This document shows positions 1,470-8,760 of a stretch of 64,000 nt of DNA, piece by piece. A program made the position numbers and the translations under genes. The number at the start of each line of letters is the position of its first letter. The first letter of the stretch is position 1. The DNA is from Hydrogenobaculum sp. 3684 (lineage in GTDB: Bacteria > Aquificota > Aquificia > Aquificales > Aquificaceae). The notes beneath the pieces were generated by a model. That model made no database searches. It was not told the origin of the DNA and saw only the letters and a program-made list of their open reading frames with translations. The stretch spans positions 868,001 through 932,000 of the forward strand of contig NC_015557.1 of the NCBI RefSeq assembly GCF_000213785.1, written 5' to 3'.

Positions 1470-1476
1470 ATTGCTT

Positions 1477-2268
1477 ATGATAGAAATTAAAGGTGATATC
1501 TTTATAAACAAAGACGGTGAAGGTTTCTTTGGACAAGGTCGTTATAAGCTTTTAAAGCTTATAGACAAATACGGTTCTATATCAAAAGCTGCAAAAGAGA
1601 TGAAGATGAGCTATAAAGCAGCTTGGGACCATATACAGTCTATAAATAACTTAGCCCAAGAGCCTGTTGTTTATACAAAAGCTGGTGGTAAAGATGGTGG
1701 GCAAACTATACTTACACCATACGGCAAAAGACTTCTTAAGCATTATGAGCGTATTCAAGAAGAATACCAAAAGTTTTTGGAGCTTTTAAAAGAAGAAGAG
1801 TTAGAAAGTTTATACGTTATAAGGAGATTAGATATGAAATTGTCCGCAAGGAATCAGCTTCTTGGAAAAGTAAGCGCTGTAGAAAAAGCCCAAGCGGTTT
1901 CAGAGGTTGTAATCTCAATAAGAAACGGCGCCACAATAAAGTCTGTAATAACTACAGAAGCGGTAGATACCATAGACTTAAAACCTGGTAAAGACGTGGT
2001 GGCTATTGTAAAGTCCTCTGATGTTATACTGGGAGTAGGGGAGGAAGTAGAAAAACTATATCCATTGAGCGTAAGAAACATCTTAAAAGGTGACGTCAAA
2101 CAGATAGTGGAATCTGATGTAAATAGCCTTGTAAAAGTAGACATAGGAGCTGAGCTTACCATTAGCTCTGTAATCACTACAGAGTCTTTGAAAGAGCTTG
2201 GTATAAAAGAGGGCTCTTCGGTTTATGTCATAATAAAAGCCTCAAACGTAATGATTTATGTAATTTAG
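1477..2268 (+). CDS. modE: Molybdate-responsive transcription regulator ModE
   Basis: About 263 residues. Residues 1-110 form a winged helix-turn-helix of the ModE/LysR N-terminal type (SISKAAKEMKMSYKAAWDHI). This is followed by two Mop (molbindin) repeats, about 120-190 and 195-263, each with an ...ISxRNGATIKSVITTE or ELTISSVITTES type core that binds molybdate or tungstate at the dimer interface. That is the complete ModE architecture. A TTG six bases earlier is in frame, but ATG at 1477 is preferred. modA follows after 11 bp. The operator at 1184-1207 is a likely target. As in E. coli, it probably represses transporter genes when Mo is sufficient. Confidence 0.9.
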   Translation: MIEIKGDIFINKDGEGFFGQGRYKLLKLIDKYGSISKAAKEMKMSYKAAWDHIQSINNLAQEPVVYTKAGGKDGGQTILTPYGKRLLKHYERIQEEYQKFLELLKEEELESLYVIRRLDMKLSARNQLLGKVSAVEKAQAVSEVVISIRNGATIKSVITTEAVDTIDLKPGKDVVAIVKSSDVILGVGEEVEKLYPLSVRNILKGDVKQIVESDVNSLVKVDIGAELTISSVITTESLKELGIKEGSSVYVIIKASNVMIYVI

Positions 2269-2279
2269 GAGATGATTTT

Positions 2280-3014
2280 ATGAAAAAGTTTATAGTTTTT
2301 GGGCTTTTAGCAAGCAAAATAGTCTTTGGTGCTACAATTACAGTGGCAGCTGCTGCTGATCTTAGATTTGTATTGCAAGATTTGACAGCACTTTATGAGA
2401 AAGAATATCCTCAAGACAAATTAAAGTTTATATACGGAGCTTCTGGTAACTTTTACAATCAAATAAGGGCTGGTTATCCTATAGATGTATTTATGTCTGC
2501 GGATACACATTTTCCTGAGCTTCTTTATAAACAAGGTTTATCTTACAAACCAAGAGCTTACGCCATAGGCAAACTTGCTCTTTTTACCACAAAAAATATA
2601 GATGTGGATAATCCAAAACTTGCTTTCTTAAAAGCTCAAAAAGTGGCTATAGCAAGTCCAAGAGTAGCCCCTTACGGGGTTGCTGGTATATCTACACTTC
2701 ATTGTTATCATGTGTACAACGAGGTTAAAGATAAAATAATTTTCGGTGAAAATATAATCCAAACTACTCAGTTTGTAGCTTCTAAAAATGCAGATGTGGG
2801 ACTTGTTTCTTATTCTCTTATCTTGGCACCACAGCTTCATAGTAAGGGTAAATTTTACCTTATACCTCAAGCTTGCTATAAACCTATCGTACAAGGCGCT
2901 GCTGTAATAAAATCAACAAAAGATAAAAACGCTGCCATGAGATTTTTTAACTTTTTATATTCCCAGGAAGCGATAGGCATCTGGAAATCTTTTGGATACG
3001 GCATACCAAGATGA
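2280..3014 (+). CDS. modA: Molybdate ABC transporter, periplasmic binding protein
   Basis: The 244-residue protein starts with a cleavable signal peptide (MKKFIVFGLLASKIVFG) and then the ModA core: VAAAADLRFVLQDL, the GASGNFYNQIRAGYPIDVFMSAD segment whose Ser and backbone contacts bind the oxyanion, and VAIASPRVAPYG near the second lobe. It delivers molybdate (or tungstate) to ModB. A GGAG ribosome binding site overlaps the spacer after modE. The stop overlaps the modB start as ATGA, giving translational coupling. Confidence 0.92.
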   Translation: MKKFIVFGLLASKIVFGATITVAAAADLRFVLQDLTALYEKEYPQDKLKFIYGASGNFYNQIRAGYPIDVFMSADTHFPELLYKQGLSYKPRAYAIGKLALFTTKNIDVDNPKLAFLKAQKVAIASPRVAPYGVAGISTLHCYHVYNEVKDKIIFGENIIQTTQFVASKNADVGLVSYSLILAPQLHSKGKFYLIPQACYKPIVQGAAVIKSTKDKNAAMRFFNFLYSQEAIGIWKSFGYGIPR

Positions 3015-3670
3015 TAGATTACAGCCCTTTTTTGATAAGCTTTGAAGTGGCTATATCCACTACGATAGTCCTCGGCGTGGTGGGAATTTTTATATCCTAT
3101 TTTTTAGCTTTTAGTAAAAGCGTATTGGCAGATATCGTAGAACCTTTTATCATGAGCCCTTTGGTGCTTCCTCCCACTGTGCTTGGGTTTTATATCATGT
3201 ATATATTTGGGCTTCAAAGCCCATTGGGAAGGTTGTTAAACAACATTGGTATACATCTTCTTTTTAACTTTAACGGTCTTCTTTTGGGTTCTATCATATA
3301 CAGCTTGCCTTTCGCTGTTTCTCCGGTAGTGTCAGGCTTTAGATCTGTGCCAAAATCTATCATAGAAGCCTCTTATACACTTGGAAAATCAAAGTTTTAC
3401 ACGCTTCTAAAAGTTATAATACCAAACTCCAAATATTCTATAATAAGTGCTTTGGTGCTTGTATTTTCTCATACCATCGGTGAGTTTGGCGTTGTGCTTA
3501 TGGTAGGGGGTGATATTCCTGGTAAAACTAGGACCGCTTCTATAGCTATATTTGATTATGTACAAGAACTAAACTATAAACAAGCAAACATCACAGCTTT
3601 GATACTCTTTGCAATAGCTATGAGTACACTTATTTTTTTACAAATTTTAAAAAGGTTTCAAGAAAGATGA
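3011..3670 (+). CDS. modB: Molybdate ABC transporter, permease subunit
   Basis: The 219-residue membrane protein has about five or six hydrophobic segments. It has the cytoplasmic EAA loop (EASYTLGKSKFYTLLKVIIP), which docks on the ATPase, and a GEFGVVLMVGGDIPGKT region typical of ModB. It forms the inner-membrane channel. It overlaps modA and modC by 4 bp each (ATGA), so the three transporter genes are one translational unit. Confidence 0.92.
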   Translation: MIDYSPFLISFEVAISTTIVLGVVGIFISYFLAFSKSVLADIVEPFIMSPLVLPPTVLGFYIMYIFGLQSPLGRLLNNIGIHLLFNFNGLLLGSIIYSLPFAVSPVVSGFRSVPKSIIEASYTLGKSKFYTLLKVIIPNSKYSIISALVLVFSHTIGEFGVVLMVGGDIPGKTRTASIAIFDYVQELNYKQANITALILFAIAMSTLIFLQILKRFQER

Positions 3671-4296
3671 TGGAAATAAGTATTGAAACAAAGTTTTTTA
3701 AATTTGAAATCAACCTTTCTAAAAGCCAAATACTTGGTATAGTAGGCCCTTCTGGCATTGGTAAAACCACAACCTTAAGAGCAATAGCCGGTTTAGAAGA
3801 AGCTAAGGGTAAGATTGTAGTTGATGGTGAGGTATGGCTTGATAAAAATTTATCTTTAGCTCCCAAGAAGCGCTCTATAGGATTTGTATTTCAAGATTTT
3901 GCACTTTTCCCAAATATGAGCGTGCTTGAGAATGTAGCTTATGCCTCTTCAAAAGAAAATGCTTTAGAGATTTTAAAAGCTTTTAACATAGAACATCTAA
4001 AAGATAAACGCCCAAATAAACTATCGGGTGGCGAGCGTCAAAGGGTGGCAATAGCAAGAGCTATAGCAAGAGCTCCAAAAGTTTTACTTATGGATGAGCC
4101 TTTTTCAGCCCTTGATAGAAAAACAAAGCATTTTATTCAAGATAAGATATTGGAATTTTCAAAGATGCATAAGTTTTATACAATATTTGTAGCTCATGAT
4201 CTTACAGATGTTGTAAGATTATCTGATTTAGTTTTTTCAGTGGAAGATCAAAAGCTTTTATCCAAAGAAGAGTTTGAAGAATATTCTTTAATGTAA
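3667..4296 (+). CDS. modC: Molybdate ABC transporter ATPase, short form
   Basis: The 209 residues contain Walker A (GPSGIGKTT, about 29-37), the Q-loop (FVFQDFALFP), the signature LSGGERQR, Walker B (KVLLMDEPFSALD) and the switch His (VAHDL). It energises ModAB transport. At 209 residues it is a bare nucleotide-binding domain: the C-terminal TOBE/Mop domain that gives many ModC proteins about 350 residues is missing. A separate Mop-domain gene lies downstream at 4954. Two in-frame ATGs (3667, 3670) are possible. The stop codon lies inside the first of the NifA-type sites. Confidence 0.9.
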   Translation: MMEISIETKFFKFEINLSKSQILGIVGPSGIGKTTTLRAIAGLEEAKGKIVVDGEVWLDKNLSLAPKKRSIGFVFQDFALFPNMSVLENVAYASSKENALEILKAFNIEHLKDKRPNKLSGGERQRVAIARAIARAPKVLLMDEPFSALDRKTKHFIQDKILEFSKMHKFYTIFVAHDLTDVVRLSDLVFSVEDQKLLSKEEFEEYSLM

Positions 4297-4356
4297 AAAA
4301 TATTACATTATTGTAATAACTATAACAATTGTTATATGGTTGTAAATTTCATTACA
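4292..4356 (+). promoter_or_regulatory. Three NifA-type upstream activator sites (TGT-N10-ACA)
   Basis: Three exact TGT-N10-ACA elements occur at 4292-4307, 4312-4327 and 4341-4356, each itself largely palindromic. They lie about 60-110 bp upstream of a -24/-12 promoter, the usual place for NifA enhancer sites. The first begins at the modC stop codon. The following genes are nifW and nifZ relics, which supports reading them as nitrogen-fixation control sites. Confidence 0.75.
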
Positions 4357-4402
4357 ATCTTATAAAAACCTTATATAGCAATGCATTTTCTAGAATTGAT
4401 AA

Positions 4403-4418
4403 TGGCATGACAATTGCT
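4403..4418 (+). promoter_or_regulatory. Sigma-54 (-24/-12) promoter of the nifW-nifZ unit
   Basis: TGGCAT-N5-TTGCT matches the RpoN consensus TGGCAC-N5-TTGCW with one change. The invariant GG (4404-4405) and GC (4416-4417) are separated by the canonical 10 nt. Transcription would start near 4428-4430, about 17 nt before the nifW ATG. The NifA-type sites lie just upstream. Confidence 0.75.
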
Positions 4419-4445
4419 AAATAACATATGAAAGGAGGTGAGTGT

Positions 4446-4763
4446 ATGAGTTTGTTTGAAGATATAAAAAAGCTAAGTAGCGCAGAAGAATTTTTTGATT
4501 ATTTCAAGATACCCTATGAAGAGCATATATTAAAACCTTTTAGACTACATATTTTACAAAAGTTTAAAGTTTATATAGATTCTTTATCTGTATCCTCTGA
4601 AGAAGAAGCCTATTAGAAGATGATAGATTTCTTAGTAAAAGCTTATTCGGATTTTCAAAGCACTGATAGTCCGTTCAAAGAAAGGCTGTTTAAAGTACAT
4701 CAAGATGTAGTAAAACCAAATGTTGTCTTTGAGGTTGGTTTAAATGATAGAGCCAAAGTTTAA
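4446..4763 (+). pseudogene. nifW: nifW interrupted by an in-frame TAG
   Basis: A strong AAAGGAGGTGA site precedes ATG 4446. The reading frame begins LKKLSSAEEFF-like (IKKLSSAEEFFDYFKIPY) and has the RLHILQKF motif typical of the nitrogenase stabilising protein NifW. A TAG at 4614-4616 stops it after 56 residues. The same frame then continues without other stops to the TAA at 4761: FLVKAYSDFQ, PFKERLFKV, matching the usual NifW C-terminus. Read through, the protein would be about 105 residues, the normal family length. It is one substitution away from intact, so the lesion is recent, recoded, or a sequencing error. It overlaps nifZ by 20 bp. Confidence 0.8.
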
Positions 4764-4991
4764 AGTGGGTGATATTGTAAAAACCAAGAAAAAATAAGAA
4801 ATGACGGCACATTCCCAGTGTTACCCTGGGGTGAGCTACTTCTACCAAAAGGCGCTGAAGGAGTGGTGATAGACATAGGTAGATTTTTGCAAACACAAGT
4901 GGTGTATGTGGTAAATTTTTTAGAGAATGGTAAAATAGTGGGGTGTTTGGAGCATGAGCTTGAAGCCTGTAACGAAATATACTCTATTTAA
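4744..4991 (+). pseudogene. nifZ: nifZ with a one-base frameshift in an A6 run
   Basis: ATG 4744 opens IEPKFKVGDIV and then stops at TAA 4795, right after six A (4789-4794). Adding one A restores the frame: RNDGTFPVLPWGELL, GVVIDIGRFLQ, VYVVNFLENGKIVGC and an end at 4989-4991. This is the whole NifZ pattern (NDGT-P, GxLL, GxFLQ, VGC). NifZ acts in maturation of the nitrogenase P-cluster. With nifW it is the second damaged gene under the sigma-54 promoter. A sequencing indel, transcript slippage on the A run, or true decay are all possible. Confidence 0.8.
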
Positions 4992-5181
4992 GGGTGTTGT
5001 AACAGATTTAGACGTAGGTGAATTTAGAGCTTCTATAATGGTAAAGTTCAAAAATTTAGAGCTTTCAGCCGTTATACCAAAGAAAATGGTTACAGAATGG
5101 GGATTAAAAATTGGCGACAAAGTGATGGTCCACATAGAAGAAGGGGGCGGTATATATATTTACAAAAACAAACTTACATAA
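4954..5181 (+). CDS. Single Mop/TOBE-domain molybdate-binding protein
   Basis: The 75-residue protein is one TOBE/Mop-like beta domain: YTLFKGVVTDLDVGEF, LELSAVIPKKMV, WGLKIGDKVMVHI, similar to ModC C-termini and molbindins. It starts inside the 3' end of nifZ in another frame, so it is coupled to it. It may store Mo in the cytoplasm or act as the detached regulatory domain of the short ModC; both are inference. The frame is intact, unlike its two upstream neighbours. Confidence 0.65.
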   Translation: MSLKPVTKYTLFKGVVTDLDVGEFRASIMVKFKNLELSAVIPKKMVTEWGLKIGDKVMVHIEEGGGIYIYKNKLT

Positions 5182-5192
5182 TATATAAGAGG

Positions 5193-5954
5193 ATGGTAAA
5201 TTGTATAAAGTTATATGACGATGGAAATCATAAGTTTATATTGTTAAAAGGCATGAGACTTAGCGGAGATTATATATGGACCAACGAGTATATGATTGTA
5301 GAGAAAAACTATGCAGTTTTAATAGACCCAGGCAGTATATATTCATTTTTCCAAGTTTACGATTCAATACTTGATTATGTTAGTTCTGATGATATAAAAA
5401 TTGTATTTTATTCTCACCAAGATCCCGATTTAGCTTCCGGTATAACTATGCTTATGGCAAATACTAAAGCAGATGTGTACATATCTAAACTATGGAAAAG
5501 ATTTATATCTCACTTCGGCATAAAAGATATGACTAAAATAAAAGAAATTCCTGATAATGGTATGAGTATAATCCTACCTAGCGGTAATGAAATTGAGTTT
5601 ATACCAGCCCATTTCCTTCACAGTGTAGGAAATTTCTCCCTTTACGATAAAAAATCTGGTATTTTGTTTAGTGGAGATATAGGAGCCTCTATTGTCACGA
5701 ACGAAGAAGAAGGTATATTTGTGGAAGATTTTGATGAACATTTACCAAAAATGGAATCTTTTCATAAAATATACATGCAAAGCAATATAGTCTGTAGAAG
5801 ATGGGTAGAACAAGTAAGGAAAAGAAATGTAAATATGATAGCTCCACAGCATGGAAAGATATTTAAGGGAGAAAATGTAAACAAATTTTTAAACTGGCTA
5901 TATCAACTTCGATGCGGTTTAGATATTTTAGATGACATATATCCAAAAGCTTAA
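5193..5954 (+). CDS. Metallo-beta-lactamase-fold diiron protein, ODP type
   Basis: About 253 residues. It has the metal ligands of flavodiiron-type beta-lactamase folds: SHQDPD (HxDxD), AHFLHS, FSGDIG and APQHGK. There is no flavodoxin domain, which fits the oxygen-binding diiron protein (ODP) family. ODP proteins bind or reduce O2 and often occur near chemotaxis or nitrogen-fixation genes. Here the gene follows the nif relics by 11 bp. ATG 5193 is the likely start, although the AAGAGG stretch sits directly against it. A longer frame to 5097 overlaps the Mop gene and is unlikely. Confidence 0.7.
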   Translation: MVNCIKLYDDGNHKFILLKGMRLSGDYIWTNEYMIVEKNYAVLIDPGSIYSFFQVYDSILDYVSSDDIKIVFYSHQDPDLASGITMLMANTKADVYISKLWKRFISHFGIKDMTKIKEIPDNGMSIILPSGNEIEFIPAHFLHSVGNFSLYDKKSGILFSGDIGASIVTNEEEGIFVEDFDEHLPKMESFHKIYMQSNIVCRRWVEQVRKRNVNMIAPQHGKIFKGENVNKFLNWLYQLRCGLDILDDIYPKA

Positions 5955-6015: not shown

Positions 6016-6374
6016 CTATAATGTGTATATACCAAAAGGAGCGGTTATTACTAACGACGGCTTAAGGCTTTCTATGGTTTCCAAATTTGTAACATGAGGA
6101 TTACCTATGTCCACAGTTTTATTTATAAAATTCGGATCTTCTTTTAAGATAAGATTACCGGCAAAAAACGGTATAGCCTTTCTATTCATTCCAGGATATC
6201 CTACTATACCATCTTGAGCTTTTAGCATAAAACAAAAAGGTAAAGCCATGGGAAACAATACGGCGTATTTTAAGTTTTGACCTGTGAATTTGTTGGCGTT
6301 GATAGTTCAGGTTTTTTAGAGCAAGATATCAAAATCAACGGCACCAAAAGAAAAGAAAGCTTTCTTATACTCAT
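6016..6374 (-). pseudogene. Broken periplasmic-binding lipoprotein gene (PBP/FecB-like)
   Basis: ATG 6374 overlaps the stop of the ModA-like gene as ATGA. It encodes a lipoprotein signal with lipobox (LILISC) but ends at a TAA after about 35 residues. A shift of one frame continues with LKYAVLFPMALPF, VGYPGMNRKAIPF and TNLETIESLKPSLVI, the N-terminal lobe of the metal-chelate/iron-siderophore binding-protein family. It then ends near 6016 with no second lobe. So it is both frameshifted and truncated. In Mo clusters such proteins can serve a second molybdate/tungstate importer; that link is inference. Confidence 0.6.
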
Positions 6375-7006
6375 AACCCATACTCCTTAAAGATATTTTT
6401 TGCAAACTCGCTATTTGTTATAAAATCAAACAACAAAATAGCCTCATTTGTTCTGTTAACAATCACACCTGCCTGCTCTATTGGTTTGTAGTAAGAAATG
6501 TCCAATTCAAAATAGTTTTCTGATTTTAGATTTGCCAGCACAAAAGAAAGAGGCAAAAACGCCAAGTCAGTTTTTCTATCTTTATGGATTTTCAAAACCT
6601 CTTTTGGATTTCTACCAAATATAAGCTTATGTTCGTCTAATAGGTTTGTATTTTTCAGAAATTCGTAAGTAGCTCTTCCATAAGGTGCAACACTGGGGTC
6701 TGGTATAGCAATAAGATGTGCTTTTTCTATATCTTCTAAAGATGGTTTTTTATCAAAAGCAAACAAACAAAGTCTTCCTCTGGCGTATATCCTCAAGTCA
6801 GAGCCTATGCCAAGGTCAACTAATTCTTTAGCGGATTCTATATCTGCAGCTAAAAATATATCATAAGGCTTTTCAGCTGAACTTATGAGCGAGCGTTGAT
6901 AAACTAGGCAGTTTTCTCCTATTGTTACAATAGTTGGAATATTTGCAGCAACGGTTATCTTATCAATTATTCCTTCTAAGTTTGGTGCACACGCTAAATT
7001 TACCAT
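6371..7006 (-). CDS. ModA-like solute-binding protein without a signal peptide
   Basis: The 211 residues have the ModA fold pattern: PYDIFLAADIESAKELV, IYARGRLCLFAF, LIAIPDPSVAPYGRATYEFL and IEQAGVIVN near the end. The typical export signal is absent: the protein starts MVNLACAPNLEGI, directly with the mature domain, after a good GGAGG site. It would stay in the cytoplasm unless a start further upstream was lost. It precedes the broken binding-lipoprotein gene (ATGA overlap) and faces the modABC unit. It may be a cytoplasmic Mo/W-binding protein or a decaying paralogue. The oxyanion-binding region is less conserved than in modA at 2280. Confidence 0.7.
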   Translation of the reverse strand: MVNLACAPNLEGIIDKITVAANIPTIVTIGENCLVYQRSLISSAEKPYDIFLAADIESAKELVDLGIGSDLRIYARGRLCLFAFDKKPSLEDIEKAHLIAIPDPSVAPYGRATYEFLKNTNLLDEHKLIFGRNPKEVLKIHKDRKTDLAFLPLSFVLANLKSENYFELDISYYKPIEQAGVIVNRTNEAILLFDFITNSEFAKNIFKEYGL

Positions 7007-8070: not shown

Positions 8071-8760
8071 TTATTTCTTCTTGGCTTTCTTAGCTGCAGC
8101 TTTAGCTTTTTCGTGAGCTTTTTTGGCGGTTTTTGCCATGTGTTTGGCGTGAGATTTTACTTCTACTGGTTTGCCGTTGAGTATACATAGAGGGTTGCGT
8201 TTTCTGTCTTTGTACTTGAGTGTCCAGTAGTTGAACTCACGTCTTGCCCTTGCCTTTTCTGCTGGTGTGAGGTGTACTAAGTATCTTAGCCTCATGCCTA
8301 CCCTTAATATCCATGGGTCTCTACCTATGGCTCTTCTGTTTAGGTCATAGATTGATGGCCAATATACTTGGGTACCGTAAATCCTTTGAGCTATTGTAGA
8401 AAGAGTATCGCATGGTTTTACTCTGTAATAACCGTACATAGCGTGTGGTTTTACTATTGGCTTACTTACTGGAGGTGGTGGAGGTGGTGGTGTTTGTGGT
8501 GGTGGAGGTGGAGGTGGTGGAGGTGGAGGTGGTGGAGGTGGGGGTGGTGGAGGTGGTGGAGGGGCTGGTTTGTGCTCTTCTTTACCAAGAGCTTTGATCT
8601 TGTTGATGTCAATACATGTAATCCAATAAGCGCCATTGTTACAGGTGTCTGGTTCTGGGTTTAAATACACACCTGCTCCTTCATTTCCGTGCGCGCTTGC
8701 TGCATAAAGCATGAACCCCAGTCCTATGGCTGGTGCCAGCATTGTAAGAAACCTATTCAT
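8071..8760 (-). CDS. Secreted LysM protein with a long polyproline linker
   Basis: 229 residues. There is a signal peptide (about 1-23). Then comes a tract of more than 30 prolines broken only by QT (about 60-95), and a LysM domain (YRVKPCDTLSTIAQRIYGTQVYWPSIYDLNR, about 110-155) that binds peptidoglycan. The C-terminal tail is rich in Lys and Ala. Probably a cell-wall-attached periplasmic or surface protein, with proline as a rigid spacer and a basic tail that could bind polyanions. A GGAGG ribosome binding site precedes ATG 8760. It is monocistronic with its own terminator. No enzyme domain is visible. Confidence 0.75.
   Translation of the reverse strand: MNRFLTMLAPAIGLGFMLYAASAHGNEGAGVYLNPEPDTCNNGAYWITCIDINKIKALGKEEHKPAPPPPPPPPPPPPPPPPPPPPPPQTPPPPPPPVSKPIVKPHAMYGYYRVKPCDTLSTIAQRIYGTQVYWPSIYDLNRRAIGRDPWILRVGMRLRYLVHLTPAEKARARREFNYWTLKYKDRKRNPLCILNGKPVEVKSHAKHMAKTAKKAHEKAKAAAKKAKKK
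8471..8574 (+). repeat. G-rich GGT/GGA triplet tract (polyproline codons on the other strand)
   Basis: About 104 bp of almost uninterrupted GGT, GGA and GGG triplets on the plus strand, encoding the polyproline linker on the minus strand. It has many closely spaced GG runs in an otherwise AT-rich genome. Length change by slippage would stay in frame when whole codons change. Confidence 0.8.

Follow-up and report, generated by a model that had tools for sequence, protein, structure and literature searches.

A relict NifA/sigma-54 promoter probably left by a dismantled nif operon in Hydrogenobaculum

What does a seemingly perfect NifA/sigma-54 control region do in front of broken nitrogen-fixation genes? 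We addressed this question for a 64,000-nucleotide stretch of the genome of the hot-spring bacterium Hydrogenobaculum sp. 3684 (hereafter the window; positions are counted from its first nucleotide), using the whole source genome (G000; one contig, 1,552,775 bp) and those of its relatives, among which Hydrogenobaculum sp. Y04AAS1 (G003), a complete genome of the same genus, was the reference for the operon alignment. The initial annotation had described three exact TGT-N10-ACA sites and a correctly spaced -24/-12 promoter within 127 bp, and direct reading, pattern searches, and conservation in G003 bore this out. UAS1 (TGTAAAAAATATTACA, 4292–4307, overlapping the modC stop codon), UAS2 (TGTAATAACTATAACA, 4312–4327), and UAS3 (TGTAAATTTCATTACA, 4341–4356), all on the plus strand, were found by both direct reading and pattern search and are identical in G003. 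The -24/-12 element (TGGCATGACAATTGCT, 4403–4418, plus strand), found by pattern search, fits TGGCAY-N5-TTGCW and has a core that is unchanged in G003. Reckoned from its -12 GC, transcription is predicted to start at about 4429, which centers the three UAS at approximately −129, −109, and −80, where such sites are sought about 80–150 bp upstream of a start. An ATG at 4428 was rejected as the nifW start, as it coincides with the predicted transcription start; the true nifW start is at 4446.

A chance run of AT-rich palindromes might produce such a region, given that TGT-N10-ACA alone is common in the AT-rich window (23 seen vs 13 expected). However, the probability of at least three such sites per 127 bp was 5e-6 with the first-order composition of the whole window and 5e-5 with the local AT-rich composition, that of a -24/-12 element per 127 bp was 1e-4 to 8e-4, and the joint probability with a correctly spaced -24/-12 element was below 1e-7 per 127-bp stretch even in the AT-rich model. 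These values, the conservation of the sites in G003, and the homologous promoters preceding nif genes across Aquificaceae led us to reject a chance origin, to which we attach next to no credence. Within the 1,552,775-bp genome, this is also the only UAS paired with an exact -24/-12 element at 40–70 bp spacing; the scan for further pairs that had been proposed returned no second one. Four of the five other exact -24/-12 sites lie within coding genes. The remaining, intergenic site (G000:C1:273918-273933, minus strand; L099) precedes a Rieske/molybdopterin pair (arsenite-oxidase-like), adjoining an NtrC-family activator, and is probably part of a sigma-54-controlled operon.

The control region lies behind modE-modA-modB-modC (1471–4296, plus strand), a molybdate regulator and transporter recognized by Pfam/NCBIfam matches to a TOBE regulator, modA, a permease, and an ABC ATPase. 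Downstream, and on the same strand, a nifB Shine-Dalgarno sequence fused to that of nifW marks a deletion junction (AAAGGAGGT, 4431–4439; by comparison with G003). It is followed by a nifW pseudogene (4446–4763; PF03206), in which a single internal TAG at 4614–4616 replaces the CAA of G003, and by a nifZ pseudogene (4744–4991; PF04319 match on read-through), which a 1-nt deletion near 4790 has frameshifted relative to the intact frame aligned from G003. Two intact genes come next: a small TOBE/Mop-like gene (4954–5181; PF03459), which occupies the same place in G003 and has a similar counterpart in the T. albus-like genome G050, and a co-directional ODP-family gene (5193–5954; metallo-beta-lactamase fold, di-iron; PF19583, E = 4e-73) beginning 11 bp 3′ of the mop gene. 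The genes behind the promoter are thus damaged, as had been stated: nifB and the ferredoxin gene fdx are deleted, nifW carries a nonsense codon, and nifZ carries a frameshift, leaving the promoter with no functional nif gene to drive.

The genome of strain Y04AAS1 (1,559,514 bp; PMC2613243) preserves the earlier arrangement. The same promoter there heads nifB, fdx (a 4Fe-4S ferredoxin), nifW, nifZ, and the small TOBE/Mop-like gene, all with open frames. The two strains share the locus behind modEABC, the promoter, about 95% DNA identity, and the absence of nifHDKEN, whereas nifB, fdx, nifW, and nifZ are intact in Y04AAS1, from which the ODP gene and neighboring genes have been deleted. In the alignment, G000 lacks exactly 1,624 bp, containing nifB and fdx. 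The ends of the deletion are two identical 9-bp copies of AAAGGAGGT, one before nifB and one before nifW, which lie 1,624 bp apart in G003; a single copy is left in the fused sequence. Because both copies are the Shine-Dalgarno sequences of these genes, the deletion placed nifW behind the promoter and the first ribosome-binding site; the ATG at 4428 is a side product. The comparison shows that the promoter belonged to nifB, not nifW, in an operon nifB-fdx-nifW-nifZ-mop; its description as the region upstream of nifW is therefore right for the present arrangement, in which it abuts nifW, but not for its origin.

Genome-wide searches of G000 for the rest of the system yielded no true NifH (the matches were weak, partial, and of P-loop type), no NifD, NifK, NifE, or NifN, and no NifB, so the nifHDK genes sought at the suggestion of the initial annotation were missing, as were all six genes that would make up a molybdenum nitrogenase (0 of nifHDKENB). 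Together with the G003 comparison, these losses agree with its view of a unit caught during loss. In G003, NifB was present and NifH and NifDKEN were not found; intact nifB, ferredoxin, nifW, and nifZ genes (L039:5807-7213) thus stand in a genome without nifH, D, K, E, or N. Since the Y04AAS1 NifB stands without nitrogenase in its genome, NifB alone is no marker of diazotrophs here. Only one of five genomes of the genus (G001, 82% complete; L041) had a nif cluster, and G002 and G004 had no nif genes. Nevertheless, in the interval separating modC from the gene that follows it, G002 and G004 carry scars (L095, reverse complement about 3060-3170; L096:2990-3213) in which a degenerate UAS1 with one mismatch (TGTAATAAACATTGCA, CGTAAAAAACATTACA) is fused to the final 93 or 117 bp of ODP. 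On the simplest reading, the ancestor of G000, G002, G003, and G004 had an operon with this promoter and ODP, which has since been dismantled differently: the whole operon would have been deleted in G002 and G004, ODP and its neighbors deleted and nifHDKEN lost in G003, and nifB and fdx deleted and nifW and nifZ broken in G000. Elsewhere in the genus, NifHDK has been reported in other Hydrogenobaculum metagenome-assembled genomes (MAGs), from Iceland and one Yellowstone spring, in a 2026 survey (PMC12780486), and a Hydrogenobaculum sp. is placed among diazotrophs in a published tree (PMC5715403).

Against the trend of other genes, the G003 NifB shares 86% identity with its counterpart in the T. 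albus-like G050, with which it nests, but 63% with that of the congener G001; the outgroup consisted of distant NifB sequences (58% or less), the sole matches from a scan of named organisms. Horizontal gain of the operon, with a Thermocrinis-like organism as donor, is a candidate explanation, consistent with the nesting of NifB and with the general activators of G003 and G050 being only 50% identical, but NifW, NifZ, and Mop of the two genomes share 40–50% identity, without the closeness seen in NifB.

Which proteins could act at the control region? The initial annotation had made its reading depend on rpoN and nifA. In the genomes read, rpoN is encoded, intact, and open to the RpoN box (a TGA flagged in it by the search is the normal stop); as for nifA, the NifA of nif clusters is absent from G000, and an Nlh2-type NifA-like paralog remains. 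G000 encodes four complete sigma-54 activators (full-strength PF00158), all four of which fall outside the nif-linked clade in the tree. The tree was used because the NCBIfam TIGR01817 cut-off does not separate the paralogs: nif-linked NifAs also score below it. NifA proteins encoded inside the clusters of G032, G033, G035, and G050 formed one clade, and the one NifA-like activator of G000 (502–505 aa, GAF-AAA-HTH) belonged to a second clade, shared with relatives from genomes that lack nif. Its close relatives occur in 59 of 64 Aquificaceae, only 5 of which have nifH, and it has matches to the Nlh2 domains solved for Aquifex aeolicus (PDB 4g3v, 2m8g). Judged by its sequence, then, the sole NifA-like activator of G000 is an Nlh2-type paralog common across the family with or without nif, not the cluster NifA.

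Control of the NifA/sigma-54 type is indeed present in an Aquificales genome, since Hydrogenobaculum belongs to Aquificaceae, but it is less unexpected there than had been supposed. Searching the family for UAS paired with -24/-12 elements returned approximately 30 matches, compared with 0 for a reversed control pattern, and promoters of the same kind occur in the nif clusters of G001, G032, G033, G035, and G050. G000 has the same sites, spacing, and order as these clusters, which include those of the T. albus-like G050 and the H. thermophilus-like G033, and differs in that the genes behind are deleted or broken and the nif-linked NifA is absent. In nif-less genomes, many matches precede genes for P-II, glutamine synthetase, and ammonium transporters, including glnK-amtB of the congener G002, and some precede a gene of the CO-dehydrogenase/prismane family. 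Examples are TGTWAAC/GTTWACA sites with -24/-12 elements before glnB-glnA and glnK-amtB in nif-less Aquificaceae (L183-L190, L192, L197, L207) and variant UAS before the CO-dehydrogenase/prismane gene (L187 and L201-L204).

The half-sites differed with gene context, TGTAAT/G being found with nif and TGTWAAC with nitrogen assimilation. A leave-one-out matrix, with sites grouped by gene context, separated the two sets without overlap: log-ratios averaged +10.9 (2.5 to 18.1) for the nif set and −12.0 (−17 to −4.6) for the gln/amt set. The three UAS of G000 scored +5.6, +6.8, and +4.1, with the nif set. Studholme and colleagues reportedly showed in 2000 that an A. aeolicus NifA-like protein bound near glnBA. 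We infer that the Nlh2-type protein serves a glnB/glnA/amtB regulon. Its expected sites, TGTWAAC/GTTWACA before glnB, glnA, and amtB, differ from the TGTAAT/ATTACA of the G000 sites. Because the latter are of the nif half-site type, the operator looks orphaned as far as its sequence tells. However, the recognition helices of the remaining paralog (TLRQLDYRIKKY) and nif-linked NifA (TVRQLNYRIKKY) differ by only two residues, and the paralog may bind the G000 sites well, in which case the operator would not be orphaned.

Substitutions between G000 and G003 bear on the age of the decay. The dN/dS ratios were 0.10 for nifW and 0.13 for nifZ; across both, 6.5 of 20 changes were non-silent, compared with 16 expected without constraint (silent excess, P ~1.5e-5). 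The mop gene likewise had a dN/dS of 0.10. Across UAS1–3 and the core of the promoter, none of 58 positions had changed, as opposed to 9 of the 81 surrounding positions (Fisher P 0.006). The low ratios of nifW and nifZ and the unchanged UAS indicate that most of the divergence dates to the useful period of the operon, which would make the decay recent; recency alone can explain the intact look of the promoter.

We therefore consider it very probable that the region is a relict NifA/sigma-54 promoter of a nifB-fdx-nifW-nifZ-mop-ODP operon, whose remaining intact targets would be the Mop-like and ODP di-iron proteins, and, as part of the same explanation and with the same high confidence, that its perfect look is due mainly to the recency of the decay. 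NifA bound at UAS contacts sigma-54 RNA polymerase at -24/-12; in the working form, a NifA hexamer on the three UAS would have done so under nitrogen limitation. As the comparison shows, slipped or recombined pairing of the identical Shine-Dalgarno sequences removed nifB and fdx, with the promoter and ribosome-binding site fused exactly to nifW. The nifW and nifZ genes are inactivated, nifHDKEN and the nif-cluster NifA are missing, and RpoN and the Nlh2-type paralog remain. Given UAS of the nif half-site type, activation by this paralog is probably weak, and the products of any transcript from the promoter would be the Mop-like protein and ODP. We infer the past activation by NifA, the present activity of the promoter, and the order of the losses. 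Counting against a relict, neither mop nor ODP has been broken, a state as compatible with a promoter still used as with a decaying one.

Selection may instead keep the control region to drive mop and ODP under nitrogen limitation through the Nlh2-type activator and RpoN. The purifying selection on mop, the intact ODP gene only 11 bp downstream of it, the UAS unchanged relative to G003, and an activator with a similar recognition helix that is intact along with RpoN all accord with such a repurposed promoter. Yet the scores of the UAS place them with the nif type and not with the gln/amt sites that precede nitrogen genes in nif-less relatives; ODP appears dispensable, as it was deleted in G003, G002, and G004; and the observed constraint also spans the time before decay. 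We regard repurposing as possible but unlikely. It is more doubtful still that nifB-nifW-nifZ and their promoter had a nitrogenase-independent role in this clade, although that would explain why they were retained in G003 without nifHDK and why nifW and nifZ remained constrained after the split. The complete G003 genome does keep nifB, fdx, nifW, and nifZ intact without NifH or NifDKEN, and dN/dS was 0.10–0.13 between the lineages; on the other hand, each lineage may simply have undergone its own recent loss of nifHDK, and some Hydrogenobaculum MAGs carry NifHDK (PMC12780486).

We know of no task that NifB, NifW, or NifZ performs apart from nitrogenase, which also counts against such a role. 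A bolder combination, in which the Nlh2-type general nitrogen activator has taken over the promoter to run the Mop-like protein and the oxygen-handling ODP under nitrogen limitation, with nifB-nifW-nifZ of the sister strain working without nitrogenase, is a long shot. The recoding envisaged earlier, with nifW translated by stop-codon readthrough and nifZ by frameshifting, would indeed restore good NifW and NifZ matches. It would, however, leave these proteins without a nitrogenase, as NifB and NifH, D, K, E, and N are all missing, and at the corresponding positions the G003 genes show a sense codon and an unbroken frame. The nonsense codon, frameshift, two-gene deletion, and absent structural nif genes need no recoding, the chance of which we take to be negligible.

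A relict promoter of this kind is the remnant of a well-known regulatory unit, and its value is in the series of stages, the corrected nif past of the genus, and the split between paralogs and half-sites. Within one genus, one operon can be followed through graded removal: an intact nifB set without nitrogenase, a promoter fused to broken nifW and nifZ, and complete deletion with a scar. A deletion between Shine-Dalgarno repeats also preserves the operon layout. Furthermore, a non-diazotrophic Hydrogenobaculum lineage once carried nif genes. The absence of nif from Hydrogenobaculum has been used to support late nif gain in Thermocrinis and Hydrogenobacter (PMC3733012); its past presence speaks against that argument, and NifHDK in other MAGs was already noted (PMC12780486). 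The half-sites suggest a testable rule, namely that the two NifA paralogs of Aquificaceae may split their targets by TGTAAT versus TGTWAAC.

Further along the window, 6016–7006 (minus strand) holds a modA-like gene and remnants of an adjoining 346-aa gene, of which G002 and G004 have intact copies, and the TonB-receptor/FecCD-type block beside this region is missing in G000. At 8480–8560 (minus strand), a proline run (PPPPP) in the gene of a LysM-like secreted protein differs in length between G000 and G003.
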